64,000 nucleotides of DNA. Origin: a virus. Position numbers and translations under genes: made by a program. Location of the stretch: positions 1 through 64,000 of IMG/VR virus record IMGVR_UViG_3300035698_016797; one strand, written 5' to 3'. This document shows, piece by piece, positions 18,673 through 54,966 of the stretch. Each line of letters starts with the position of its first letter. Position 1 is the stretch's first letter. The notes under the pieces are model-generated. The model searched no databases, was not told the origin of the DNA, and saw only the letters and a list, made by a program, of their open reading frames with translations.

Positions 18673-19233
18673 ATGGAATTCGGCATCACGGGTACACAAA
18701 TCGGGTTGACTGATTTACAGAGTGCGAAAGTTCATAACGTGCTGGAACGTATTTGTGCCAGAATCAAACCTCGTGTTGAAAAAGGTGAAAGCCTCATTCT
18801 TCACGAAGGGTGTTGTGTTGGTGCTGATGATCAAATTACCACAATGTTCCTGGCAATGGCTTCTTATGCTTTCGTCACCGAACATCCTCCTGCAAACACT
18901 AGCAAGATGGTTCCTCATATCAATGGAAATACTCGACTAGATCCACACCCATATCTGGTTAGAAACCGACACATCGTTGATTCGAGTGAGTTTATTCTTG
19001 CTTGTCCAAAGCAAATGACGGAAAACCAGCGTGGTGGGACATGGTACACCATCAGATATGCCAGAGCACAAAATGTACCAATCGTGATAGTGTGGCCAGA
19101 TGGAAGTGCCACTCACGAAGGAGATTTTGAGTTCATCAATCAGACCGAGAATGTTGCCACCATCAACAAGATGGCAGGAAATGTTGACGATCCTATGTAT
19201 GCACCAATTTCATTTAAAGAGGATGAAGAATGA
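18673..19233 (+). CDS. SLOG-like Rossmann protein with MYAPISF tail
   Basis: 186 residues from MEFGITGTQIGLTDLQ after AAAGGG. The opening GITGT and ILHEGCCVGADDQITTMFLA match the SLOG/DUF2493/DprA-LOG nucleotide-binding pattern (G[ST].G.T, then H.G.C.GaD). Such domains bind nucleotides or their derivatives and appear in phage-defence and nucleotide-signalling systems. The last 20 residues, DDPMYAPISFKEDEE, carry a short motif repeated in the next two large genes. SLOG assignment is fairly good; ligand unknown. Confidence 0.7.
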   Translation: MEFGITGTQIGLTDLQSAKVHNVLERICARIKPRVEKGESLILHEGCCVGADDQITTMFLAMASYAFVTEHPPANTSKMVPHINGNTRLDPHPYLVRNRHIVDSSEFILACPKQMTENQRGGTWYTIRYARAQNVPIVIVWPDGSATHEGDFEFINQTENVATINKMAGNVDDPMYAPISFKEDEE

Positions 19234-19697
19234 AAAAGATTCTTCTTAAAGTAGCAAGGTTGGATGGTGTTACGACAGAGTTGTTTATCAACTTAATGCT
19301 ACGCTTTTCTAACTTTTTGTCGAATTGGGCCGATTACGAAACTAATCGGCTACTCTTCGTAGAAGTACGCATTGGAGCCAAGGCTAGAGCACGGTTTCAG
19401 TTCGTTGGATGGACAGTTGAAGAGGCAAGAGATGAGATGGACAACAACTTGCCTGATGGATACCTTTCAGTGCCGTATGTAAACGGTCTGTTTGCAGAAG
19501 ATAGCGTGGTATTAAGACCACTCGATGTACTTGTGTTTATTCCTCCAACAGCAAAAAGGATATTATTCGTATCATGGCTAAGAAAACAAAAGTCCCAACT
19601 GAGACATTGGACTTTGGTACTGCTGGAAAGATTAAGGTTGTGCTGGTCCAAGGTTCGCTTGTGCCTAATTCTATTCTCCCAGAGACGGTCGAGGTAG
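19230..19697 (+). CDS. Possible MoaD/ThiS-like beta-grasp protein
   Basis: The frame codes 155 residues but the reliable part is about 110. Residues 61-106 read WTVEEARDEM, then VNG at 84-86, then VVLRPLDVLVFIPPTAKR. This is the order seen in MoaD-type ubiquitin-like proteins: a helix after strand 2, a VNG turn and a D.V.FIPP C-terminal strand. There is no terminal GG. The rest overlaps the next gene by 124 bases and looks like read-through of another frame. Assignment is by pattern only. Confidence 0.45.
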   Translation: MKKILLKVARLDGVTTELFINLMLRFSNFLSNWADYETNRLLFVEVRIGAKARARFQFVGWTVEEARDEMDNNLPDGYLSVPYVNGLFAEDSVVLRPLDVLVFIPPTAKRILFVSWLRKQKSQLRHWTLVLLERLRLCWSKVRLCLILFSQRRSR

Positions 19698-19909
19698 AAT
19701 CAGGCTTCGTGTATGGGAGATACCCATTCGACGTTAAAGATTCAAAGTGCTTTCGGTATATTGTCAGTATGACCGGTAACGGTTCACGTTCGGACACTAA
19801 CTATATCAACATAGGAAGACACACTACAAGAGCGTGCTATGTAAGGAATATGAGGAAGACGTGCACTGCCAAATTTAAGGTGGTATCTGGTTCTGTTCGT
19901 GCTGCGTAG
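19574..19909 (+). CDS. Hypothetical basic protein
   Basis: 111 residues starting MAKKTKVPTETLDFGTAG, with alternating beta-like sequence and basic C-terminus (RHTTRACYVRNMRK). Its start lies within the preceding frame, with AAAGG 14 bases upstream. Function unknown. Confidence 0.62.
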   Translation: MAKKTKVPTETLDFGTAGKIKVVLVQGSLVPNSILPETVEVESGFVYGRYPFDVKDSKCFRYIVSMTGNGSRSDTNYINIGRHTTRACYVRNMRKTCTAKFKVVSGSVRAA

Positions 19910-19968
19910 AGTGAAACGTGTCAGTTCGACACGACACTATAAACCCATTCTGCAAAAGGAGCAAGAAA

Positions 19969-20247
19969 ATGGGTAAGGGCAAGGGTTCGATGGTTTCATT
20001 GTTTAGCGTTGGACAAGTGATTGTCTTTCGTGACAATGATGAAAGTGGAAAAGCCATCGACAGAGTAGGTCGCATAACCAAACTTCACAAGTCCTGCACT
20101 TGCGGAGTTGCGGAAATCCATCCTCTTGACGAGAAGGGGAAACAAAAGAAGCTGGCAAGAAAGCTGAGAGGCGTTCACAATGCGAATGCAAAACAGCTTG
20201 AAGAGCTTCGTCAAGCCATGGCAGAGAAGGAACAAAGTCATGAGTAG
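19969..20247 (+). CDS. Hypothetical protein
   Basis: 92 residues from MGKGKGSMVSLFSVGQVIVF after AAGGAG. The first half looks like a small beta-barrel (GQVIVFRDNDESGKAIDRVG), then a charged helix. Its stop overlaps the next start. Confidence 0.65.
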   Translation: MGKGKGSMVSLFSVGQVIVFRDNDESGKAIDRVGRITKLHKSCTCGVAEIHPLDEKGKQKKLARKLRGVHNANAKQLEELRQAMAEKEQSHE

Positions 20248-21181
20248 GAAGATCGTTCAGAAATTGGCTATCACATTTCGTGTAGCCTTCATCTCTAAGC
20301 GTGACGGCAAGTACCTCAAGTACTTTCGTACATATGTTCCATTCCCGGAACACATGGCACTTCCTGGGCAAATATTTGCCGGAAACTCGTATGTTACGGC
20401 TTTCAAAATTGCTCTTGGATACAACAACAAGTTCGAGAATAAGAAAGATTTCTCTGTACGTGAGTATTCGTACAGGAAGTCTCAAGTGACAGAGGAAGGG
20501 AAGAGACGTGTCATTAAAGCCTATGAGAATGGTGACATGGAAGCGTATGCTAAAGAAGGTACGCTAATGGTCTCTCCTCACAGAGCTGTTGCTCGACGCT
20601 ACCAAGTGCTTCCACTCGTCATGGTTTGCTGTGACACGGTCGAAGGAGTTGAGTGGCGTTGGAGACTTGAGTATACCGAGATTGACCTTGAGGCACAATC
20701 CATGAGTGATAGAGATGGTGACAGGGTGATTCCTCTGCTACCAGACTATTCTGCTTATGGAGAAGACGTGTCTCCATCGAAGGATTCTAACGAACCACCT
20801 CCTGTTATGGGACAAGAGGTGATTGAGTACGACGAAACAGATGCGAACAGTGTGCCTAAAATGCTTATTCGTCTCGAAGACGAAGGGTTTGAGATGAAGG
20901 TGCATGAACGTAGAGGAAAGAATGATGGTGAACCTCTCAATCTTGCTCAGAAAAGAACAAAAGCCAAGAAAGATACCGCATTGAGAGAGAGACAAGGGAT
21001 TGTTAACGCTATCACGGCTGAAGTTCCAATCCTCACAACGGTTGAGAGCGATTCCTTGTACGATCCAATTATCATCGGAAGAGAATATGATGATGCTGAG
21101 CCAGTAACGGCAACCAAACCAGAACAGACAATCGCGGCTGAAGACCCAATGTATAAATCAATTAGCTTCGAGGAGAAATGA
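20240..21181 (+). CDS. Large protein with repeated MYxPI-type C-terminal motifs
   Basis: 313 residues from MSRKIVQKLAITFRVAFI. The N-terminal 140 residues look globular; the C-terminal third is acidic and disordered. Near the end are SLYDPIIIGREYDD and DPMYKSISFEEK, versions of the motif also found at the ends of the SLOG-like gene upstream and the zinc-finger gene downstream. No enzyme motif seen. Confidence 0.7.
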   Translation: MSRKIVQKLAITFRVAFISKRDGKYLKYFRTYVPFPEHMALPGQIFAGNSYVTAFKIALGYNNKFENKKDFSVREYSYRKSQVTEEGKRRVIKAYENGDMEAYAKEGTLMVSPHRAVARRYQVLPLVMVCCDTVEGVEWRWRLEYTEIDLEAQSMSDRDGDRVIPLLPDYSAYGEDVSPSKDSNEPPPVMGQEVIEYDETDANSVPKMLIRLEDEGFEMKVHERRGKNDGEPLNLAQKRTKAKKDTALRERQGIVNAITAEVPILTTVESDSLYDPIIIGREYDDAEPVTATKPEQTIAAEDPMYKSISFEEK

Positions 21182-22590
21182 TGAGTAGCAAGAAATTCAC
21201 GGCTTTTGAACTTGGCACCGACGGCAAACCGATTGAAGAGGTATGCCCCAAGGGAACAACAAGTCCTGTTACGTTGCATCGTCTCATTCGTAAGGCTTCC
21301 GGTGATACTGGTGAAAACGGACATCTCAAGCCAATGAGTAGTGTAGATGCAGACAAAAACATCGAAGTCATCTCCGCTTGTGGCACGCTAGAAATCAATG
21401 GCAAGAAGTACGAAGTGCGAACCGTTGGTGACAATTCCGATTTCGGCAACATGGGAAATGAGTTCGGCGGTTTGATGGAGGCGGCGCTTGAGGAAATCTC
21501 AGAATGCCCCGTTTGTCGTGGACACATCGTTCCAGATGCCAACCTGTGGATGTCAGAAGATGGTCTCGAAGGCTTCGTCCATGATGAATGCAAGGATCTG
21601 TTCGGCAAGGCCATTGAAAGAGGAAAAGCAGAAGATCACGAGAACAAGCGTGAACGTTTCCGTCAACGCCGCTACAAAGAACTCCAAGTGTTGATGCATG
21701 ACGCGGAACTTGAGGCGAGAGCAGACAGGCTTGAGTGGGTTGATCCTGAGCCTCCTGAATCCTTCCCAGAAGGTGCTGAAAGATGCTTCCTCTGTTCTGG
21801 CCATGTAACTATCGGAAACAACAATGTTGTTCCTCGTGATGTCCTCCGTGGACAAATTCAAGACACCGGTGAGGCTTGCTACGCACACATCGAATGCCTC
21901 CGCAATGAAGTACTGAAAGATCCAGAGTTACGGATTTTGATGTTCTTCGAGTCTTATGGGTTGAGACTTCACGAAGAAGTCATCAAGTCGTGCGTCAAGC
22001 TCCAAGCCGCTATCAAGTATGGCTTGATTCGCCGGTTGAGAGAAGAGTATGGTGGAAACACGGTTGTTCGTCGTGATGCTGTTGCTCCAGAGCAACTGAT
22101 AACAGAGTCTGCAAGAAGTCTGCGAGCTGGAGATTTCCTCGGACTGGCACATACTGGTCAAGAGGTGCCCGTTGCGGCTATGTCTCACATTACGGATGAG
22201 ATTACTCTTGCAGCACGTCATGCAAGTGACATGCTCAGAGAACGTCTCAATCTTCAACCGGCTCCTGTTGCAGGGATTCGACCGGTAAGAGACGGTGTGA
22301 ACATGATTACTCACGAAGGGGAAATGTACGCTCCCATCATCATCGGTAACGATGAAGACGGTGTAATAGAAACCAATGCCGATGAAACTATTCCGGTCAG
22401 TGGTGGAACTTCCAACGAGAACGAAGTGGTAAAAACCATCATGCTGGATGAAGGATCTGTTGCCAAGGATATGTATGCTCCCATCTCATTCGCAAGTGAA
22501 GAAACACAGTGTGTAGCCTGTGGAGGTACTGAAGTTGCCTCTAGCGGTGAACCGTGTGTTCCATGTCAGCAAAAGAAAGACTCCAAGTAG
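21181..22590 (+). CDS. Multi-zinc-finger protein with MYAPI motifs
   Basis: 469 residues. At least two fingers of the pattern CxxC-(about 20-26)-H/D-xx-C are visible: CPVCRGHI...FVHDEC and CFLCSGHV...AHIEC, plus a terminal CVACGG...CVPC knuckle. Between them is a charged helical region. The C-terminal third contains EMYAPIIIGNDED and KDMYAPISFASEE. The same kind of CxxC...HxxC finger is repeated four times in the protein at 35518. These may be protein- or RNA-binding modules; no enzymatic motif. Confidence 0.72.
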   Translation: MSSKKFTAFELGTDGKPIEEVCPKGTTSPVTLHRLIRKASGDTGENGHLKPMSSVDADKNIEVISACGTLEINGKKYEVRTVGDNSDFGNMGNEFGGLMEAALEEISECPVCRGHIVPDANLWMSEDGLEGFVHDECKDLFGKAIERGKAEDHENKRERFRQRRYKELQVLMHDAELEARADRLEWVDPEPPESFPEGAERCFLCSGHVTIGNNNVVPRDVLRGQIQDTGEACYAHIECLRNEVLKDPELRILMFFESYGLRLHEEVIKSCVKLQAAIKYGLIRRLREEYGGNTVVRRDAVAPEQLITESARSLRAGDFLGLAHTGQEVPVAAMSHITDEITLAARHASDMLRERLNLQPAPVAGIRPVRDGVNMITHEGEMYAPIIIGNDEDGVIETNADETIPVSGGTSNENEVVKTIMLDEGSVAKDMYAPISFASEETQCVACGGTEVASSGEPCVPCQQKKDSK

Positions 22591-28880: not shown

Positions 28881-29438
28881 ATGAAAACCACAAGCCGCGC
28901 CTTCACATTCATCGAGATACTCACATGTATTGCTATCGTCGCCCTCATCGCCGGAATTTTCCTCTGCGCAATGGACAAGTCGAAGTCCGGTTCGCCCGAC
29001 AATCCTCACGCCACGGTCGTCTTTCAGAGTGAAGAATCCGTGACCGTTGTCGAACTCGACATCGCACCTCCGGCCATCATCGACCGTCTCTGCAACACAT
29101 ACGTTCCGTACGAACCAACCAACATGTTCACCTGCATCGGCGGGAATGTTGACTACGGGCCTTCGTTCAATGCTCAACTCCTCAGTATGGAAGTGACAAA
29201 AACGATTAACGCTGACACGATGCCATATATCGACATACATCGAAGCGGCAACATCGTTACATCGCGGCCAGCGGATTCGAAGGGGATGTTTGCACTCAAC
29301 GATCTCATCGAGGTTCTGATGGTTCAGAACGAGATGAATCAGCTGCAACATGAGAATATGGAAACGGCCACCGCCATACTGATGTGTCCGACGAGTCTTA
29401 ACGACGCCACCGAGAATTATAAAACATACAATTCCTGA
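28881..29438 (+). CDS. Prepilin-like protein in a separate transcription unit
   Basis: 185 residues. The N-terminus MKTTSRAFTFIEILTCIAIV continuing ALIAGIF is a typical type IV prepilin/pseudopilin leader: basic start, F-T-[FL]-I-E-[IL]-L and a long hydrophobic helix, normally cleaved before the first F and methylated. The C-terminal part is globular and not recognised. Its DNA is richer in G+C than its neighbours, and it ends in its own strong terminator, so it may be a late acquisition (moron). It would depend on a host prepilin peptidase. Confidence 0.75.
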   Translation: MKTTSRAFTFIEILTCIAIVALIAGIFLCAMDKSKSGSPDNPHATVVFQSEESVTVVELDIAPPAIIDRLCNTYVPYEPTNMFTCIGGNVDYGPSFNAQLLSMEVTKTINADTMPYIDIHRSGNIVTSRPADSKGMFALNDLIEVLMVQNEMNQLQHENMETATAILMCPTSLNDATENYKTYNS

Positions 29439-29531: not shown

Positions 29532-29789
29532 ATGCAATTTGAAACCAGAGCAGATGTTGGCGAAGAAGTCTTTGTTATTCACGAAGGTAAGATTCACAAA
29601 CAAAAAATCAGAAACATCACGGTTTACTTTGATGAAACAGGAAGTGCGAAAGAAAGATACGTCGTTGCTGTAAGAAATAAAGACCAAAAACATGTTGTTA
29701 CAAACATGAACATTAACCGTGAGAATCTAGTCTTTAGCATTGAAGAATTGTCCCAGCATCCATTCTGGACCGACTTTCGCAAGGGGTAA
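29532..29789 (+). CDS. Small protein of the (G)[DE]E[IV]F[VL][IV] family
   Basis: 85 residues. VGEEVFVIHEGKIHKQKIRN and the end LVFSIEELSQHPFW closely parallel the genes at 54101 and 54682 and, more weakly, the broken gene at 61355. All share an N-terminal beta-hairpin with EVFxx and a late V.[FY].[IV]E[GE]L..H..W motif. A phage paralogue family of unknown function. Confidence 0.72.
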   Translation: MQFETRADVGEEVFVIHEGKIHKQKIRNITVYFDETGSAKERYVVAVRNKDQKHVVTNMNINRENLVFSIEELSQHPFWTDFRKG

Positions 29790-33291: not shown

Positions 33292-33783
33292 ATGAGAAAA
33301 AGAAACTTTACATTGCTGGAACTCGTGGTTTGCTTCTGTTTCCTTGTGATCCTTGGAGCTATTGCCTGCAAAATCCTTTTTGGATGCCAGAAGAAAAACC
33401 ATCCAATCACCGTGAGCGAGCAAACCGTTGAAGTTACTATTAAGCTCGATAGTGACGTAATTGCAGGCTTAACAAACGGCTTAATGGAGTCTTTTAAGAA
33501 AGAAATGACTGCAAGGATTGAATCCGAGGCAAAGGCTGCGTTTATTAAAGCCAAGAAGGACATTAAAGAAGAACGTTGGGACAACACAGTACATCCTAGT
33601 GGTGAGACGGTAAAGGAAGAGGAACCGGAAAAACCGAAACCTCCTCCAACTCCAGAAGGTCCGAAACCTCCTACAGCGCCAGAGGTTAAACCTGAACCTC
33701 AACCAGAATCGGTAGAAAAGTCTACTCTCGTGGAAGTTCCAGCTAAAAAGATCAGAAAATGGGATAATTCTATACATCATTAA
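33292..33783 (+). CDS. Prepilin-like protein with proline-rich tail
   Basis: 163 residues. MRKRNFTLLELVVCFCFLVI followed by LGAIACKIL is a second type IV prepilin-like leader (RN-FTLLEL). The middle is a charged helix; residues about 105-140 are Pro/Glu-rich (EPEKPKPPPTPEGPKPP), consistent with an extended stalk. Unlike 28881 it sits in the local operon. Surface or membrane localisation is likely. Confidence 0.72.
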   Translation: MRKRNFTLLELVVCFCFLVILGAIACKILFGCQKKNHPITVSEQTVEVTIKLDSDVIAGLTNGLMESFKKEMTARIESEAKAAFIKAKKDIKEERWDNTVHPSGETVKEEEPEKPKPPPTPEGPKPPTAPEVKPEPQPESVEKSTLVEVPAKKIRKWDNSIHH

Positions 33784-35202: not shown

Positions 35203-35597
35203 ATTTCTTTCCGATAGGATTTCAACCAGAGGGAGAAGATCCATTACATCCTGACGACTATCATTTCCACACGATTAATAGGATGTTCGCATACGCTTTT
35301 TCTTGTCAACTTTGTAGACACTTCCAACCGGTCCCGGAAGATGCACTCTTTATCACGAAAGCTACATTTTACAGTATGCCCGTACTTGAGGCATGTCTCG
35401 TATGTACGGACATCGAAAACGAGGAAACAATGCAATGGGCTTACATAGTTGAGACCATTTTACCAACAACTTGGGATGAAGAGGCAAAGATATGGATACA
35501 AAACGAAGCGGAACAACATGACATTGTCTTCAATTTTAATCATACTAACTCCAATGGGTGTGCTAACGATAGTGTGCATCGCATTGGTTTTAATTGA
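35199..35597 (+). CDS. Hypothetical Cys-containing protein
   Basis: 132 residues. CQLCRHF and CLVC in the middle could form one zinc site. The last 80 bases overlap the start of the next gene if that begins at 35518. Function unknown. Confidence 0.55.
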   Translation: MNFFPIGFQPEGEDPLHPDDYHFHTINRMFAYAFSCQLCRHFQPVPEDALFITKATFYSMPVLEACLVCTDIENEETMQWAYIVETILPTTWDEEAKIWIQNEAEQHDIVFNFNHTNSNGCANDSVHRIGFN

Positions 35598-37194
35598 CAA
35601 AATGGTTGAAAGCATAGAAGAAGAAGGAAATAGATGGTTGAACCATGACATCTATTTGGTCCAATTTGCAGAACTAAAGAGAGGATGTATTTCAATGTCA
35701 GATGGCAAGCAGAACTACAGAGAAACAGACACGCTATTACGCTTTAATGGTGACAAAGACAATTCTGTAAAGACAAAGTTGTGTCGCGTAGCCTTAAGGC
35801 CGGTTAAAAGTTGGAGATCAACCAATCAGGACAAGGACTGTTGGTATTCCATCTTTGCGTGTATTCAAGATGGAAAACAAAAGTGGTTGTTAAAAAGGCA
35901 ATCCATCCATCAAGACACTATAAAATCGTCTGTGAGCGAAACTATCATTCCACACGCGAACGGAATGAACATTCTCAAAAGCCAAAATGAATCAAAAGTC
36001 ACCACCTTCAGACAAGAAGGTTTCAGTGGTTCAAACATTATGGCTGGCTTTTTCAACAACACTCTTACTATGGGGCAGAGTTCGAAGAGAATATTCGACA
36101 TCCTCACCGAATCGTTGGCTACCGAAGCTGATGACTCACCTCTTGTCAACACCCCGGAATATGACCCTGAAGACGATCTTACTACAAGGTATCGCTGCAA
36201 GGGAACAACCACCGGCAGAACAAATGGATTTATGTTGCGCCAAATAGACAGTGAACTCGAATGTATCTATTGCAACACCATGAGATGTGATGTCTTGTTT
36301 GTTACTTCCACAGATAGAGAAGTACCGTGTCATGGAGACTGTCTTGAGGCGGAAGTAGAGATGAATCCAGATGTCGGGATTGCTCTGGTAATACATGAAA
36401 CAGTGTTCGGAGGCATTCCAGAAGGCAGGCTTCCTGCTGGAGTAAATGTGCTTGAAACACCACTATCTAACTCCTCTGTTCCAGAAGACGACAAGTGTTG
36501 TTTCTGTGACAAGAAAAAGTGCACCGCTGACGGATATGTAAAAGGTAAACTAACATCCTTTCACAGACTCTGTGCCCTCAAACAGCTCACCCTTACACCT
36601 TGGGATGCTGAACTTGAATCTTTGATAGGTGACACCGTACTTATTCCAAGTGGAAGAGTTCCTCAAAGTATGGTTCCACACAAGGCTGTATGTTTTATGT
36701 GTGGAGTTTCTGGGGCAGACAGGGTCGCAACAGACTTCGTTAATGGCCAACCACGATTTCTGCATATCAAATGCCTAGAGGATGAGATCAACAAGGATGG
36801 GATGACAGAGGATGACCTCCTTGATCTTGCCACAGAACTTATGAAAGACAGACAGATAGAAGAGTGCTGGTATTGTGGAAACAAAGAAGGCAAACTTATC
36901 TGGTCAGAGGAATATTGTGTATGGGTTCACAAAGAATGCGTTATCAGAGACGTAATGGAAGACTCTGCCGACGCAATCAACCTCAACATTGCCGCAGAAC
37001 TTCTCACCCAAGAAGAATTGAACATCCCGCAAATAATACAAGAAACTGGTAAATGTAAAGAGCTGAACGGTTGTGTCAAGATGGCTCACATTTTCCTGAG
37101 AAGGGTAAATGATATGCTCGAAGGAGAAGAGAATGTCTTCGAACCTGCTCCCAACTGGATTACGAAGTTGGAAGAGGCATTAGACAATGAATGA
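35518..37194 (+). CDS. Four-zinc-finger protein
   Basis: 558 residues if started at 35518, which adds a likely membrane segment (SSILIILTPMGVLTIVCIAL); an alternative start at 35695 (MSDGKQNYRE, after AGAGGA) gives a soluble protein. The C-terminal two-thirds hold four related fingers: CIYCNTMRC...CHGDC, CCFCDKKKC...FHRLC, CFMCGVSG...LHIKC and CWYCGNKEG...VHKEC, each CxxC-(17-20)-[HC]xxC, like the fingers in 21181. Possibly protein- or nucleic-acid-binding. Confidence 0.65.
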   Translation: MTLSSILIILTPMGVLTIVCIALVLIDKMVESIEEEGNRWLNHDIYLVQFAELKRGCISMSDGKQNYRETDTLLRFNGDKDNSVKTKLCRVALRPVKSWRSTNQDKDCWYSIFACIQDGKQKWLLKRQSIHQDTIKSSVSETIIPHANGMNILKSQNESKVTTFRQEGFSGSNIMAGFFNNTLTMGQSSKRIFDILTESLATEADDSPLVNTPEYDPEDDLTTRYRCKGTTTGRTNGFMLRQIDSELECIYCNTMRCDVLFVTSTDREVPCHGDCLEAEVEMNPDVGIALVIHETVFGGIPEGRLPAGVNVLETPLSNSSVPEDDKCCFCDKKKCTADGYVKGKLTSFHRLCALKQLTLTPWDAELESLIGDTVLIPSGRVPQSMVPHKAVCFMCGVSGADRVATDFVNGQPRFLHIKCLEDEINKDGMTEDDLLDLATELMKDRQIEECWYCGNKEGKLIWSEEYCVWVHKECVIRDVMEDSADAINLNIAAELLTQEELNIPQIIQETGKCKELNGCVKMAHIFLRRVNDMLEGEENVFEPAPNWITKLEEALDNE

Positions 37195-39784: not shown

Positions 39785-40417
39785 ATGTCACAGAACGTAG
39801 CAGTATCATTCGGCGTCAACAAGATGAACCTGGAAATCGCAGGCCAGAGCCTCGCCACCGTCGCGCATCAGCTGAAGAGCCTCTTGGGGCTTGCCGGTGG
39901 CGAAACCCAGAAAGTCAATGGTCGCGAAGCTGCCAATGACTACATCCTCAAGGCTGGCGACAGGCTTGAGTTTGTGAAGGTCAGTGGTCGCAAGGGTGCA
40001 AACGTCTCCGTGACGTTCGGCGTCAACAAGATGAACCTGGAAATCTCAGGCCAGAGTCTGGCAACGGTTGCTCACCAGCTCAAGTCCCTCCTGGGACTTG
40101 CCGGTGGTGAGACCCAGAAGGTCAATGGTCGTACAGTGGCCAATGACTACATCCTCAAGGCTGGTGACAGGCTTGAGTTTGTGAAGGTCAGTGGTCGCAA
40201 GGGTTCGATCGCCGTCAGTGCCGGTGTGAACCGTATGGACCTGGAGCTGGCTGGTAAGACTGTCAGCCAGGTTCGTAAAGAGCTGGCAAGCCTGCTCCAC
40301 ATCGACAATACGTGGAAAGCGGAAGTCAATGGTGCCACCTGTGGTGCCACCAAACGCCTCCGCAACGGTGACAGTCTGGAATTCATCAAGGATTCCGGCA
40401 CCAAGGGTGATGGCTGA
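39785..40417 (+). CDS. Triple-repeat ubiquitin-like protein
   Basis: 210 residues made of three tandem beta-grasp units of 69, 68 and about 73 residues. Each unit has VN[KR]M[ND]LE, a helix (SLATVAHQLKSLLG), VNG, and [LR].[AN]GD.LEF.K, ending SG[RT]KG. The pattern is that of PRTRC system protein C/ThiS-like ubiquitin relatives, which also end in GTKG. Units 1 and 2 are almost identical in protein and share long identical DNA tracts. After unit 3 only DG follows the KG, so a JAMM protease could expose KG ends, as in poly-ubiquitin. Modifier function is inferred. Confidence 0.8.
   Translation: MSQNVAVSFGVNKMNLEIAGQSLATVAHQLKSLLGLAGGETQKVNGREAANDYILKAGDRLEFVKVSGRKGANVSVTFGVNKMNLEISGQSLATVAHQLKSLLGLAGGETQKVNGRTVANDYILKAGDRLEFVKVSGRKGSIAVSAGVNRMDLELAGKTVSQVRKELASLLHIDNTWKAEVNGATCGATKRLRNGDSLEFIKDSGTKGDG
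39811..40410 (+). repeat. Three tandem Ubl coding repeats
   Basis: Units start near 39811, 40018 (207 bases on) and 40222 (204 bases on). Units 1 and 2 share the first 30 bases and the last 70 bases nearly exactly, but differ by synonymous changes in the middle, which suggests gene conversion or selection on the protein. Unit 3 is more diverged. Confidence 0.85.
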
Positions 40418-40448
40418 AACCATCAAATGCTATTGATGTAGCATTAGA

Positions 40449-40488
40449 GTCGGAGGGGGAATGTTCCCCTTCCGACTTTTTCTTTCCA
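40449..40488 (+). terminator. Intrinsic terminator after the triple Ubl
   Basis: GTCGGAGGGGGAA pairs with TTCCCCTTCCGAC (one G-U), followed by TTTTTCTTT. It may lower expression of the downstream E2/E1 genes relative to the Ubl. Confidence 0.88.
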
Positions 40489-40519
40489 AACTGCACTAAA
40501 ACATGGAGGAATAACCAAC

Positions 40520-41251
40520 ATGGCGGCTCCAACCACAGTTCGAACCTACATTCGTATGGAAGGTGAGAGCACTGAACTAGTAGAGGAACGAGTCAAAAAG
40601 AGCTTTGAGACTGAATCTTTTCTTGAAGCACTGAGGCTCGAAGCTGGACTATCGTCCGGTCTCATTCCTCAAGATTGCATCTTCTTCTTCCGTAAACCAC
40701 CAACATCGGCAGAATCCGGTGATGATGCAGTTTACGTGATGGAAAAAGAACCTCGTACGGTCACTATGCACTTTCGCAATTCCGGTGCCAGCGGTAGCGG
40801 AACCGTTCATCCACTCAAAGTGTCTCTTCCGTACTGTCTTTTCTTCATACCCGTTAGAGGTGGAAACATACAGGACATTTGGCCAGTATGTTCAAAGCAG
40901 CGCATCAAAACCATAGATGATCCCATCTTTGTGTTGCCGATACCAAACGTGTACGATTCGGGCCATGGAAGAATTTGTGTTGGAAATCTTCGCATCGACA
41001 ATGAGAGTCCCATCCATGTGAGACTTAACAAGTTGGTGTCGATGGTTTTCACGTCTGAGTTCAACTTGGATTTGACCACGATCTATCCTTCTGTGATGGT
41101 GAAGAAGTCTGGTGAAGATCCATCCATTTTTGGATGGGCACACAAGTCGGAAGGCAATTCGTTGTTTGGATGCTCCGATGAGGTAGAGTACCTGCCTCAT
41201 AATTACGGAACATTCAAAGGTCTAATGGGGAATATAGGATGTCAACTGTAA
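40520..41251 (+). CDS. E2-like protein (PRTRC protein B-type)
   Basis: 243 residues. The middle TVHPLKVSLPYCLFFIPVRG and then VLPIPNVYDSGHGRICVGN follow the PRTRC_B/Prok-E2_D pattern (P...F......W......PL...P..NV...G.[VI]C.G), which is described as an E2/UBC-fold member. Cys153 in RICVG is the conserved residue in the place where PRTRC_B has VCLG; whether it forms a thioester is unknown. Located between the Ubl and the JAMM/E1 genes. Homology is by motif, not by search. Confidence 0.65.
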   Translation: MAAPTTVRTYIRMEGESTELVEERVKKSFETESFLEALRLEAGLSSGLIPQDCIFFFRKPPTSAESGDDAVYVMEKEPRTVTMHFRNSGASGSGTVHPLKVSLPYCLFFIPVRGGNIQDIWPVCSKQRIKTIDDPIFVLPIPNVYDSGHGRICVGNLRIDNESPIHVRLNKLVSMVFTSEFNLDLTTIYPSVMVKKSGEDPSIFGWAHKSEGNSLFGCSDEVEYLPHNYGTFKGLMGNIGCQL

Positions 41252-41595
41252 AGCAGTTTGACAGAATATTGAGTGCAACTGAAAACATTCCAACCGTCAA
41301 TGCTCAACCAATCAGTTCCGTGTTTGGGGTTTTGACAAAAAACAGTGTTCCTCGGTTGCTGACAATTACCGGAAATGCGACAACTATCATGTTGGCGCAG
41401 TTTTTACTGTTCTTGCGCAGACAGTTGAAGCATGTAAAATGTTTGATGGTCCTTGACAACAAAAACAAGGGTCAAGTAGATCGCGCATTCGTTAAGGCTG
41501 AAGTGATTCAGAGAGACAGAGATGCTGCAAAAGCCATTGCGGCCAAGAAAAAAACCAAGGGTAAGACGGTCAAAAAGACCAAGGAGTTGTTCTGA
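41239..41595 (+). CDS. Hypothetical protein of the Ubl locus
   Basis: 118 residues, basic C-terminus (KKKTKGKTVKKTKELF). RLLTITGNATTIMLAQFLLF looks like a buried alpha/beta core. Overlaps both the E2-like and JAMM genes, so it is tightly coupled. Not recognised. Confidence 0.65.
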   Translation: MSTVKQFDRILSATENIPTVNAQPISSVFGVLTKNSVPRLLTITGNATTIMLAQFLLFLRRQLKHVKCLMVLDNKNKGQVDRAFVKAEVIQRDRDAAKAIAAKKKTKGKTVKKTKELF

Positions 41596-42680
41596 TGAAC
41601 AGATTCGTGACGTCCCAAGGCATCCCAATCATTACAATGGAAGATGGAGATGATGTGGAGTCCATTACGGACCCCATCTGTTTCATCGTTTCATCCAAAG
41701 GTTGCTTCGTAAAGAAGACCAATCGGTTCTACACTTCCGTAACCGCAACAGGAAAAGACGGAATCAGCGTGCTTGGAGAAGTCAAGCCGTTCGTATCTTT
41801 CGCAGTAACAAAGCTGCCGCTTCCGACATTCCGTGCCATTCGCCAGTTCTTCACTGATGTCTACAAGAAGATGCAATCTGAAGTGGCCATCATGTTGTAC
41901 TACGATTTCGATGCGAAGTTGTGGTTGTGGGTGGTTCCTGAGCAGAAGGTAACTGCCGCCAGTGTTGACTATGAGGAGACCGACAAATCCATCATCATCA
42001 ACCAGGACAACGAACGTATTGAAGGTCCGGTTCCAGACAGCTTTACGAAGCTCGGAAGTATCCATTCTCATGCAGGAATGGGAGCCTTCCATTCTGGTAC
42101 TGACAACGCTGACGAATTCCACTTCGACGGCCTACACATCACCATCGGCTCGTTCAACAAGGCAAGCAGTGGAGATTGTTCGTACTCTGCACGCTGGATC
42201 ATCGCCGGAGAAGAAGTGAAGACTGAAATCACGGAAGTGGTTGCAGATCTCGATCCTCCTGGAGAATACCCCGAAGATGCTCATGAAGCAGTAAAGAAGG
42301 GTACATCTGCCAGTCGCACTTATGGATCAGGACGTTCCATTGGTGCCGGTACAGGAAAAGGAGGTGCGGGTCAATCGGGAATAACAAACCCTACCCAGGC
42401 GGCGAAAGGCCGCCAGACGACGCAGACGACTCAGAGTGGCAAGCCTGGTACGAAACCTGGGGAAGGTGCGACGGTGGATACAACTGGTAAAGCTCCAGCG
42501 ACTGGTAAAGCTCCAGCGACTGGTAAAGCTCCAGCGACTGGTAAAGCTCCGACAACTGGGAAAGGTCCAGTGAAGGGTTTGACGGCAGGTGACACTCAAG
42601 CAGTGACTCCTCTCGTTCCGGCGAAAGGTTCAGAAGAAAAACCGGGCCAGGAAAAAAAAACCAAGACAGAGTCATCGTAG
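41595..42680 (+). CDS. JAMM/JAB metalloprotease-like protein (PRTRC protein A-type)
   Basis: 361 residues. GSIHSHAGMGAFHSGTDNAD holds the JAMM zinc site H157-x-H159-x7-S-x2-D170; E96 may be the catalytic Glu. These enzymes cleave isopeptide or linear bonds after ubiquitin-like proteins. The last 150 residues are low-complexity, ending in four near-copies of TGKAPA and a charged tail, probably a flexible adaptor. AAGGAG precedes the ATG, which overlaps the previous stop. A natural substrate would be the KG-ended triple Ubl. Confidence 0.82.
   Translation: MNRFVTSQGIPIITMEDGDDVESITDPICFIVSSKGCFVKKTNRFYTSVTATGKDGISVLGEVKPFVSFAVTKLPLPTFRAIRQFFTDVYKKMQSEVAIMLYYDFDAKLWLWVVPEQKVTAASVDYEETDKSIIINQDNERIEGPVPDSFTKLGSIHSHAGMGAFHSGTDNADEFHFDGLHITIGSFNKASSGDCSYSARWIIAGEEVKTEITEVVADLDPPGEYPEDAHEAVKKGTSASRTYGSGRSIGAGTGKGGAGQSGITNPTQAAKGRQTTQTTQSGKPGTKPGEGATVDTTGKAPATGKAPATGKAPATGKAPTTGKGPVKGLTAGDTQAVTPLVPAKGSEEKPGQEKKTKTESS
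42482..42560 (+). repeat. 18-base tandem repeat in the JAMM gene
   Basis: Four copies of ACTGGTAAAGCTCCAGCG (the last diverged) encode TGKAPA. Copy number could vary by slippage. Confidence 0.9.
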
Positions 42681-42747
42681 AGAATCCGGCGAGTGCGGGA
42701 ATACAATTCCTGAAAACGACTCCAGATCAGAGCAGTTCATAGAAAGA

Positions 42748-42834
42748 ATGGTCGAAAGGTTCGGCTCTGAAGTTGGAGACAATCTTCAAGAGGCTGTTGA
42801 GTTGGCACGAGCCAGCCAACAGTCAGAAGGATAG
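42748..42834 (+). CDS. Possible 28-residue peptide
   Basis: MVERFGSEVGDNLQEAVELA...QSEG, ending six bases before the E1-like start. The same frame is open for 60 more bases upstream without a good start. Weakly supported. Confidence 0.35.
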   Translation: MVERFGSEVGDNLQEAVELARASQQSEG

Positions 42835-42840
42835 AACGAT

Positions 42841-43551
42841 ATGTACAAGAATGTCATAGTTATTGGCTGTGGAGGAATTGGATCACATCTTCTTCCTCCG
42901 CTGACACGATTCTTCGCTTCAATGGAGAAAGAGAAGCGTCCCAAGGAAATGAGAATCGTTGATGGAGACAAGTATGAGCAAGGCAATGCCGATCGGCAAG
43001 AGTTTGTTGCTCGTCAAGTCAACCAGAATAAAGCAGAGGCGCAGAAGGAACGCTGTTCAGTCATTCACGAAGGAATGATGGACTACTATGCGTTCCCGGA
43101 ATACCTCGGTAGCGGCAATATTGACAGCATTATTGAAGAGGATTCAATTATCTTCATGTGTGTTGACAATCATGTTTGTCGCAGTATTGTGTCGAAACAC
43201 TGTCAAACGTTGAACAACGTTGCTCTCATCACGGGAGCAAACGAACTCACCGACGGCAACGTACAGATTTACGTCAGAAAAGATGGAAAGGATATGTCTC
43301 CTCCAATAGAAAAGAGACATCCTGAAATCAGCACGGCGAAAGATGGTGACAGATCAATGATGAGCTGTGAGGAGATTGAGAAGTTGCCCGGTGGTGGACA
43401 AATCATTCTGGTGAATGCTACCGCCGCGAATCTTCAATTTCAACTCGCTTGGGAATGGCTCTCTATCGGAAAGCTTCCTTTCGAGGAGGTATATTTCGAC
43501 GTTGAGTCAATCGGAATGCGTGGGGTGCCAAATGACTACTCCAAAAAGTAG
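42841..43551 (+). CDS. E1/ThiF-like adenylating enzyme (PRTRC ThiF type)
   Basis: 236 residues. VIGCGGIGSH (residues 7-16) is the Rossmann ATP loop; VDGDKYEQGNADRQEF (40-55) has the D..D, N49 and R52Q53 of the E1 active site; CVDNHVCR (107-114) follows. Candidate catalytic Cys176 is in MMSCEEIEKLPGGGQI, where E1 enzymes of the PRTRC group have a Cys before a GGQ. It would adenylate the C-terminus of the Ubl. Family assignment is good; substrate specificity is inferred from the neighbours. Confidence 0.85.
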   Translation: MYKNVIVIGCGGIGSHLLPPLTRFFASMEKEKRPKEMRIVDGDKYEQGNADRQEFVARQVNQNKAEAQKERCSVIHEGMMDYYAFPEYLGSGNIDSIIEEDSIIFMCVDNHVCRSIVSKHCQTLNNVALITGANELTDGNVQIYVRKDGKDMSPPIEKRHPEISTAKDGDRSMMSCEEIEKLPGGGQIILVNATAANLQFQLAWEWLSIGKLPFEEVYFDVESIGMRGVPNDYSKK

Positions 43552-46971: not shown

Positions 46972-48249
46972 ATGCTGAATCAATTGTCACGACAGTTTGG
47001 AGAGCTGCCAGTAGAACTTGTTGCTAAAGATCAAAGCGACATTCCGATAGTGTCGTTTATTCAAGCTAGGCATGGGCCGGTATTGCCTGGTCGAAATATA
47101 AACGAGAAGGCATTTGGCCAACTACTTGAACTTCTGCTCGAAGGCAAGATTGTCAGAGTTAGATGTAATATAGATGCTTTTGCTCAAGAGATGGAGCATC
47201 TGAGAAAACTTGCATCTAAAAATGTTCTCATGGTATCTGCTACGGATATTTGGGAACATAATAGAGGTGAAGTTTACAAATTCAGGTTTAACGCATCAAG
47301 CGAATACTATATGGGACTTGATGAATTAGTAAATCCTGTTGATATAATTGCTTCTGTTCTTGGAGTGGAGGGAGAACTCCTTACAAGTCTTATGGCAGAT
47401 ATTTCGTCTCACTACAATCGCTTTCCATTGACAAAAAGGGATGGTTCGCAAAGATGGATTAACGCTCCAGACGATGATCTGAAAGGGGTTCAGAGACGCA
47501 TAATGAACAGAATGCTTTATCGTGGATGGGCAACTCCATGTGCTCACGGATTCATTCATGGAAAAAGTATTAAGACAAACGCAGAACGTCATGTTGGAGC
47601 CAAGGTTGTCGTCAAAATGGACATATCCAAATTCTTTGACAACATAGGAATTGACAAACTTAATACAGCCTTTGTTCCTCTGCTGAAAGCAGAAGAGCTT
47701 TTCACAATCAATTTTATCTCATCGTTGTGTACTCTCAACGGGGTCACCCCACAAGGAGCACCAACGAGTCCCGCACTATCAAATCTCGTGGTAAGAAACA
47801 TGGACTTTGCCCTCATGGGTTTAGCCAGAAAACATCACGCAGTCTACACGAGATATGCTGATGATTTGGTATTTTCCTCGAAAGATAATCGTGCATTACC
47901 ATCAATCATCCCTTTGGTAATGAACGTTGTCAACTCGAATGGGTTCCGAATCAACATGAGAAAAACCGGAGTCTTTCGCGACGGTGGAAGAATGCCGGTA
48001 ACCGGACTGGTAATCAATAAACATACAAACGTTCCTCGTAAGGAGCGTTATAAAGTACGTGCGGAGCTTCATAACATTGCAACTGGAAGAAAACCTGCAA
48101 GCGAAGAGGATCTTCAGCGTCTCGCCGGAAAGGTGGCGTTCATCAATATGGCGAATCCGCAACAGGGAGCACGTTTTGATAGTTTGATGACAGCAGCAAA
48201 GGCTGGTGCCGTACAATCAACGGAAGGTGCGGAAAACAATGACAGTTGA
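46972..48249 (+). CDS. Retron-type reverse transcriptase
   Basis: 425 residues. From residue 145 the RT core shows: RWINAPDDDLKGVQRRI, AHGFIHGKSIKTNAERH (N203-A-x-x-H207), VVKMDISKFFDNI (D217), GVTPQGAPTSPALSNLV, YTRYADDLVFS (YADD 295-298), GFRINMRKTG and PVTGLVIN (VTG 343-345). NAxxH and VTG are the diagnostic retron motifs; QGxxxSP excludes diversity-generating elements. The first 140 residues are an unrecognised N-terminal domain. AAGGAG starts the gene. It would copy msr-msd RNA into a branched RNA-DNA molecule. No ncRNA lies directly upstream; see the four RNAs downstream. Confidence 0.92.
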   Translation: MLNQLSRQFGELPVELVAKDQSDIPIVSFIQARHGPVLPGRNINEKAFGQLLELLLEGKIVRVRCNIDAFAQEMEHLRKLASKNVLMVSATDIWEHNRGEVYKFRFNASSEYYMGLDELVNPVDIIASVLGVEGELLTSLMADISSHYNRFPLTKRDGSQRWINAPDDDLKGVQRRIMNRMLYRGWATPCAHGFIHGKSIKTNAERHVGAKVVVKMDISKFFDNIGIDKLNTAFVPLLKAEELFTINFISSLCTLNGVTPQGAPTSPALSNLVVRNMDFALMGLARKHHAVYTRYADDLVFSSKDNRALPSIIPLVMNVVNSNGFRINMRKTGVFRDGGRMPVTGLVINKHTNVPRKERYKVRAELHNIATGRKPASEEDLQRLAGKVAFINMANPQQGARFDSLMTAAKAGAVQSTEGAENNDS

Positions 48250-53543: not shown

Positions 53544-54104
53544 ATGAAAGAAATACTTGTCGTAGATATAGAAACCACAGGATTCCTGAAACAAGGTGGA
53601 CTGATTGTCGAAATTGGAATTGTCAGTCTTGATCTGGACACAGGTGGAATTTCCGTACTGTTTGACTCCGTCGTTAAGGAAGGTGGATTTGGCCGTCAAC
53701 ACGCACAATCACCATTCGGATGGATCTTCCAAAATTCAAACTTAACATATGAAGACGTTGTAGCCTCAGAAAACCTCAAATGTCATATGTATCAACTTCA
53801 GACGATCTTTGACAATCATCCACTCGGTGCAACGGCATTCAATAAACAGTTTGACTTCGGGTTCTTGAAAGCACGGGGGTTGCACTTCAGAGAGCTTCCG
53901 TGCATTATGCTTGAAGCCTGTCCTGTTGTTAACCTTCCTCCAAATCGTGGTCGTTCAACACCTAAATGGCCTAAGGTAGAAGAGGCGTGGGAATATCTCT
54001 TTCCAAACAATGATTATGTTGAACAACATCGTGCCATTGATGATGTTGAACATGAGGCGATGATTCTTCACGAACTTTACATGCTTGGAAGGTATACGAT
54101 ATGA
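53544..54104 (+). CDS. DnaQ-like 3'-5' exonuclease
   Basis: 186 residues. VVDIETTGFL (D8, E10) is Exo I; ATAFNKQFDFGFL Exo II; EQHRAIDDVEHEA Exo III with the HxxxxxD order of the DEDDh class. Single-domain exonuclease, DNA or RNA. ATGA coupled to the next gene. Confidence 0.9.
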   Translation: MKEILVVDIETTGFLKQGGLIVEIGIVSLDLDTGGISVLFDSVVKEGGFGRQHAQSPFGWIFQNSNLTYEDVVASENLKCHMYQLQTIFDNHPLGATAFNKQFDFGFLKARGLHFRELPCIMLEACPVVNLPPNRGRSTPKWPKVEEAWEYLFPNNDYVEQHRAIDDVEHEAMILHELYMLGRYTI

Positions 54105-54361
54105 CCATTGACACAAAAGCAAATGTTGGAGATGAAATCTTTGTCATTTTTGACAACGATATACAGAAGTGTAAAATTTTAGATATCAAAATCATTACTG
54201 CTGAAACCTATACCGTTGAGAAGTATTCAGTAATGGTGGAGACAGGTAGTCGTGGAGAGCGAAAATCCTTAACTGTACAAGATACAGACTTAGTCTTCAA
54301 GGTAGAAGGATTGATAAAGCATCCACACTGGTCACGAATTGCCAGAGCTAAGGCTAAATGA
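54101..54361 (+). CDS. Small paralogue of 29532
   Basis: 86 residues. VGDEIFVIFDNDIQKCKILD and LVFKVEGLIKHPHWSR match the family described at 29532. Function unknown. Confidence 0.7.
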   Translation: MTIDTKANVGDEIFVIFDNDIQKCKILDIKIITAETYTVEKYSVMVETGSRGERKSLTVQDTDLVFKVEGLIKHPHWSRIARAKAK

Positions 54362-54681: not shown

Positions 54682-54966
54682 ATGCACTTTAGCTCAAAAT
54701 ACAACATTGATGATGAAGTCTTCCTTGTCCATCAAAACAGAATCATTAAAGGAAGTATTTTAGACATCAAAGTTGCCGTCAACAGAAAAAGAGGGCTTCC
54801 AACAAGTGCCCCTCCTGCTGCTAAGAGAATCTGTCTCATCTCTTACAATATTACATTCAAACTTCCTGGATCAAGAAAAGTCCACACAATGTGGCTAGAA
54901 GAAGAAGATGTTGTTTTCTACGTAGAAGGTTTGTTTTTCCACAAACGTTGGGGAAGTTCTAAATAA
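54682..54966 (+). CDS. Small paralogue of 29532
   Basis: 94 residues. IDDEVFLVHQNRIIKGSILD and VVFYVEGLFFHKRW show the family motifs; the middle has an insertion (KRGLPTSAPPAAKRI). Confidence 0.7.
   Translation: MHFSSKYNIDDEVFLVHQNRIIKGSILDIKVAVNRKRGLPTSAPPAAKRICLISYNITFKLPGSRKVHTMWLEEEDVVFYVEGLFFHKRWGSSK

Follow-up and report, generated by a model that had tools for sequence, protein, structure and literature searches.

Three proteins encoded close together on the plus strand of a viral genome, at 18.6-22.6 kb, carry versions of one short peptide, (M/L)Yx(P/S)I(S/I)(F/I), and the locus raises the question of what such a peptide does in proteins that otherwise differ in their fold. The original prediction had proposed a docking, cleavage, or localisation tag. 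The virus record spans 181,030 bases; its first 64 kb make up the stretch analysed here, referred to as the window, and the remainder of the record was also searched. For the statistics, 226 proteins (~57,000 residues) from a greedy choice of ORFs served as the proteome in place of a curated annotation.

Five copies of one peptide at a single locus

All five peptides named in the original prediction were confirmed in the sequence (Table 1). They fall into two sub-types, PIIIG and xxISF, which follow each other in the identical order in proteins 2 and 3, with a spacing of 31 residues in protein 2 and 49 residues in protein 3. In context, the copy in protein 1 reads NVDDP-MYAPISF-KEDEE-stop, those in protein 2 read VESDS-LYDPIIIG-REYDD and AAEDP-MYKSISF-EEK-stop, and those in protein 3 read THEGE-MYAPIIIG-NDEDG and SVAKD-MYAPISF-ASEE; the charge on either side of each copy is net negative (5/5). 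Two of the copies, in proteins 1 and 2, had been described as ending their proteins. The copies do sit near the C-termini, but none of them forms the extreme C-terminus, and about 30 residues, including a CxxC...CxxC knuckle, follow the last copy of protein 3. Similarly, the three genes form a closely packed and co-oriented cluster but are not strictly successive, as one or two small untagged genes separate proteins 1 and 2. The third gene starts at 21178 instead of 21181. The ORFs at 19230-19697 and 19574-19909 (+) overlap by 124 bases, where a frameshift or a mis-called gene is possible. No terminator-like site was found on the plus strand between the tagged genes, and an Rfam search of the region gave no match.

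Table 1. Positions of the tag copies, the proteins that carry them, and the ubiquitin-like cassette.
Feature	Position	Strand	Basis or remark
Protein 1 gene (SLOG/DprA-like)	18640/18673-19233	+	upstream start 18640 likewise open
Protein 1 folded domain, residues 1-146	18673..19110	+	homology, AF2 pLDDT, Foldseek
Protein 1 appended acidic tail, THEGDFEFINQTENVATINKMAGNVDDPMYAPISFKEDEE	19111..19230	+	missing in homologues; low pLDDT; charge
Copy S, DDPMYAPISF, xxISF sub-type, protein 1	19186..19215	+	sequence
Untagged ORF, 155 aa	19230..19697	+	between proteins 1 and 2; overlaps ORF 19574-19909
Untagged ORF, 109 aa	19918..20247	+	between proteins 1 and 2
Protein 2, 313 aa, orphan	20240..21181	+	charge-rich C-terminal half; two tag copies
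Copy B1, LYDPIIIG, PIIIG sub-type, protein 2	21056..21079	+	sequence; SLYDPIIIG from 21053
Copy B2, EDPMYKSISF, xxISF sub-type, protein 2	21140..21169	+	3 residues before C-terminus
Protein 3, 470 aa	21178..22590	+	zinc-finger-like units, two-copy tail, terminal knuckle
Copy C1, MYAPIIIG, PIIIG sub-type, protein 3	22324..22347	+	sequence; EMYAPIIIG from 22321
Copy C2, KDMYAPISF, xxISF sub-type, protein 3	22465..22491	+	sequence
CxxC...CxxC knuckle of protein 3, 3' of last tag	22510..22566	+	sequence; weak sub-threshold zinc-ribbon matches
Ubiquitin-like cassette	39785-43551	+	triple beta-grasp, Prok-E2_D-like, JAB-like, ThiF/E1

The proteome-wide motif search that had been suggested returned these five copies, all in the three proteins of the cluster, and no true copy was found in any other ORF of at least 50 aa in the 181-kb record. 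For the expression [ML]Y.[PS]I[SI][FI], 0.02 matches are expected in the greedy proteome, compared to the five observed; among 1000 shuffled proteomes, 972 contained no copy, 27 contained one, and a single one contained two. Because this expression was written after the copies had been seen and is fitted to them, leave-one-protein-out profiles, in which two proteins are used to find the third, provide a fairer test of chance. They recovered protein 1 (SLOG) with E=3e-6, protein 2 (20240) with E=0.0058, and protein 3 (21178) with E=4e-7, and the left-out protein always outranked every untagged protein, protein 2 being the weakest. A chance origin of the tag is rejected by the shuffles together with these profiles.

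The location of the copies also bears on cleavage, the part of the original prediction that fared worst. A cleavage or packaging signal in virions could appeal solely to the general idea that short peptides mark packaged phage proteins. The tagged genes are on the plus strand, however, and the structural-type genes are remote from them, on the minus strand at about 103-165 kb; the ORFs of the structural region hold no copy, and the tags are C-terminal. Since the tagged genes stand outside the structural module, cleavage in virions is unlikely, and a virion signal of either kind is the least probable of all the readings considered here.

The tagged tails and their carriers

The folded part of protein 1 shows 30-39% identity to five annotated phage DprA-like proteins and 31-42% identity to its IMG/VR relatives, and the conserved GxTGT..., HxGxCxGxD, HPP, RN..IV, and GTW motifs place it within the SLOG proteins. 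Its AF2 model, with pLDDT mostly >90 in the core, adopts a Rossmann-like SLOG fold, and a Foldseek search with this model matched LOG, MoCo-binding (molybdenum-cofactor-binding), and DprA structures. The tail starts after WPDGS, is 36-40 residues long, and contains 10 acidic and 2 basic residues. The pLDDT falls to about 48-66 from residue 151, and the tail is predicted to be disordered.

A tagged tail is absent in all five annotated isolate-phage homologues of protein 1. Mycobacterium phage Farewell gp78 and Acinetobacter phage ME3 gp244 are like protein 1 in the folded domain but differ from it in having no tagged tail. The tail with its tag is also absent in the usable IMG/VR homologues (about 70 of the 72 translated, a few of which stop inside the matched region and are uninformative on the tail); most of the IMG/VR homologues end within ~20 residues past the matched core, and the longest extension is 30 residues. 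As judged from these homologues, the tail of protein 1 is an add-on relative to its SLOG homologues.

Proteins 2 and 3 gave no family match above the cut-off, and no relatives of either were found by tblastn against phages and plasmids or by peptide patterns in IMG/VR; for protein 3, peptide patterns in GTDB genomes likewise found none. A terminase-based search for a relative of the whole phage yielded distant matches only, at about 26% identity. Two zinc-finger-like units of the form CxxC...HxxC are present in protein 3 (residues 110-138 and 203-240). Its AF2 model, computed for the protein alone, is poor (mean pLDDT 34.6), and disorder around the tags in proteins 2 and 3 was judged by composition only. 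A 581-aa protein at 35449-37194 (+) contains four CxxC...HxxC units and is weakly like protein 3 (pairwise E=7e-5); as it is finger-bearing yet untagged, the presence of this type of finger does not by itself bring the tag. In IMG/VR, degenerate DNA patterns for MYAPISF and MYxPIIIG matched 21 stretches, which were mostly short or spurious frames and none of which lay in a comparable acidic tail. Among 84,980 genomes, MYAPISF (TCN codon form) was matched 82 times but never in an acidic C-terminal tail, and the matches in long frames occurred mainly in membrane or enzyme-like contexts.

The three proteins had been regarded as otherwise unrelated, which holds for their folded parts but not for the tails of proteins 1 and 3, which are related over ~30 residues. 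In an all-against-all comparison these two tails align over 30 residues with 50% identity (E=0.002), the top match among all protein pairs of the proteome that share no recognisable fold, and a shuffle test of tail similarity gave P ~6e-6 for proteins 1 and 3, 9e-4 for proteins 1 and 2, and 0.013 for proteins 2 and 3. The tag thus belongs to a shared tail and is not an isolated peptide. As the tails are related, duplication could account for the sharing without common binding: a segment copied between neighbouring genes would persist by descent, and no common partner would be needed. The similarity of proteins 1 and 3 reaches beyond the tag, covering 30 residues in all with 54/90 nucleotides identical, and adjacent genes are natural donors, both of which speak for such an event. 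On the other hand, the seven-residue core is unchanged amid diverged codons and flanks. Between proteins 1 and 3 all seven core residues are identical, compared to 8/23 flanking residues (15/23 differ; Fisher P=0.006), a test that is suggestive only, as it uses a single sequence pair and a core picked for being conserved. Synonymous differences are found in four of the seven core codons, and copy B2 encodes Ser by AGC, not TCA. Moreover, two of the proteins hold internal copies, and protein 2 has almost only the core in common. Among the rivals to docking, a functionless duplication ranks first; it is possible but unlikely in our estimation. The pattern of conservation suggests that the tail is an old shared module with its core under selection, and the retention of the core despite codon and flank divergence favours a docking motif.

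The next rival to docking is a proteolysis signal, in which the tails would act as degrons or adaptor-delivery peptides, so that all three proteins share a brief lifetime. A small, hydrophobic, and unstructured peptide near the C-terminus would suit this role. However, no copy is located at the C-terminus itself, two copies are set back from it by about 41 and 88 residues, and the knuckle follows the last copy of protein 3. Degrons of the ssrA type have a small hydrophobic end such as LAA, whereas the tagged proteins end in DEE, EEK, and DSK, and this class was rejected. A role in proteolysis is accordingly less credible than duplication and appears quite improbable.

Comparison with known peptide classes

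The tag has the general look of a SUMO-interacting motif (SIM), in that a short hydrophobic strand with acidic flanks lies in flexible regions, and acidic residues stand beside the core in all five copies. The SIM consensus is a four-residue core, hXhh or hhXh, where h is I, V, or L (PMC8616421). The cores PIII, PISF, and SISF do not fit it, so that a canonical SIM was rejected; the tag differs further in its extra invariant Tyr and in that there is no SUMO. The beta-grasp proteins of the phage are nevertheless a candidate partner. Its ubiquitin-like cassette (Table 1) contains a protein at 39785-40417 with three beta-grasp domains, two of them nearly identical, adjoined by E2-, JAB-, and ThiF-like genes. 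The Prok-E2_D-like protein is just below the Pfam cut-off, and the best NCBIfam matches of the cassette, PRTRC_ThiF (3e-19) and PRTRC_A (1.5e-6), are all below the curated cut-offs; by these matches the cassette resembles the PRTRC cassette, and it also resembles the described operons with tandem ubiquitin-like domains (PMC1779556).

That the acidic-flanked strand binds the triple beta-grasp protein in a SIM-like manner would agree with the presence of this cassette in the same phage, but all five cores depart from the published consensus and the cassette lies 17 kb from the tagged genes, making such binding very improbable. The more specific proposal, a phage-specific tag for recruitment to the polyubiquitin-like triple beta-grasp protein that the phage itself encodes, is a long shot. 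If true, it would constitute a prokaryotic viral counterpart of the SUMO/SIM pair, tying SLOG and zinc-finger-like proteins to the ubiquitin-like cassette of the phage.

Several other genes of the phage deserve mention. A reverse transcriptase at 46972-48249 (+), near the cassette, matches RVT_1 (E=8e-25), and its best PADLOC model is RT_XIII (1.7e-78). The ORFs at 28881-29438 and 33292-33783 (+) have prepilin-like N-termini (FTFIEIL.. and FTLLELV..), which are unusual in a phage and may hint at the host group. Three small paralogous proteins are encoded at 29532-29789, 54101-54361, and 54682-54966 (+), and paralogues at 154226-155341 (-) and 171463-172575 (+) of the record carry CxxxCxxC-type motifs like those of radical SAM enzymes.

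Beta-clamp binding motifs, with the consensus QxxLxF or QL[SD]LF, are likewise short hydrophobic peptides borne on protein tails, and they bring several proteins together at a common hub. A motif of this type could bring the three proteins to the replisome; xxISF is loosely like QxxLxF, and the record apparently encodes, from its sequence, a DnaE-like polymerase (70144-72516) that would need a clamp. The defining Gln is, however, missing at the first position of every copy, on which ground the beta-clamp class was rejected, and the PIIIG sub-type (2/5 copies) has no terminal Phe. No phage clamp was found, as a search of the record for a DNA_pol3_beta domain was negative, and the clamp would have to be that of the host. 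Recruitment to a clamp therefore has a slimmer chance still than either of the ubiquitin-like proposals.

The C-terminal tip of SSB, an acidic tail ending in IPF that is used by many partners, is similar to the tag in combining an acidic tail with a hydrophobic element. In the tagged proteins the core is followed by more acidic residues, and the logic is reversed, in that many proteins share the peptide. An SSB-like tip was rejected because KEDEE, EEK, or an extension of ~30 residues follows the last copies, leaving no hydrophobic C-terminus.

A closer match in sequence is ENPMYRPIIIG, which occurs in an unrelated IMG/VR phage repressor with a Peptidase_S24 domain and is nearly identical to the tag. 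UmuD and LexA contain similar segments, of the NPxYxPIxI type of S24 peptidases (LexA/cI/UmuD). There the segment is a strand inside the folded protease domain, whereas no Peptidase_S24 domain was found in the three tagged proteins or in the record; for this reason the likeness is treated as convergence. Mimicry of the S24 strand by the tag is possible.

Proposed docking to a common partner

Of the roles originally put forward, docking or localisation gives the best reading, since the peptide is confined to one cluster, borne on tails, repeated, kept in its core, and added on to a known fold. We put the probability at roughly 0.55 that the tag is a short linear docking motif for one partner common to the three proteins. 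As in docking motifs generally, a short conserved core lies in probably disordered regions of differently folded proteins. A short core with acidic flanks, placed in tails, repeated, and common to neighbours, is a usual build for such motifs, and the hydrophobic and aromatic core of the tag, with all of these features in neighbouring proteins, favours recruitment to one partner.

In this mechanism, the hydrophobic core MYxPI(S/I)(F/I), which probably forms a beta-strand, would stand between acidic flanks in the flexible tails of the three proteins, of which the first has a nucleotide-binding SLOG fold, the second is an orphan, and the third is zinc-finger-like. A single partner, of the phage or the host, with a groove for the peptide would gather all three in one complex or place. 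Proteins 2 and 3 would grip it by two sites each, PIIIG and then xxISF. The binding of the tag, the common partner, and the joint action of the three genes are all points that we infer.

Shared short tags of this kind could serve as a cheap predictor of which uncharacterised phage proteins act together. In this phage, for which the searched collections contain no close relative, the tag connects a SLOG-fold protein with two orphans and is a ready bait peptide for a search for their partner.
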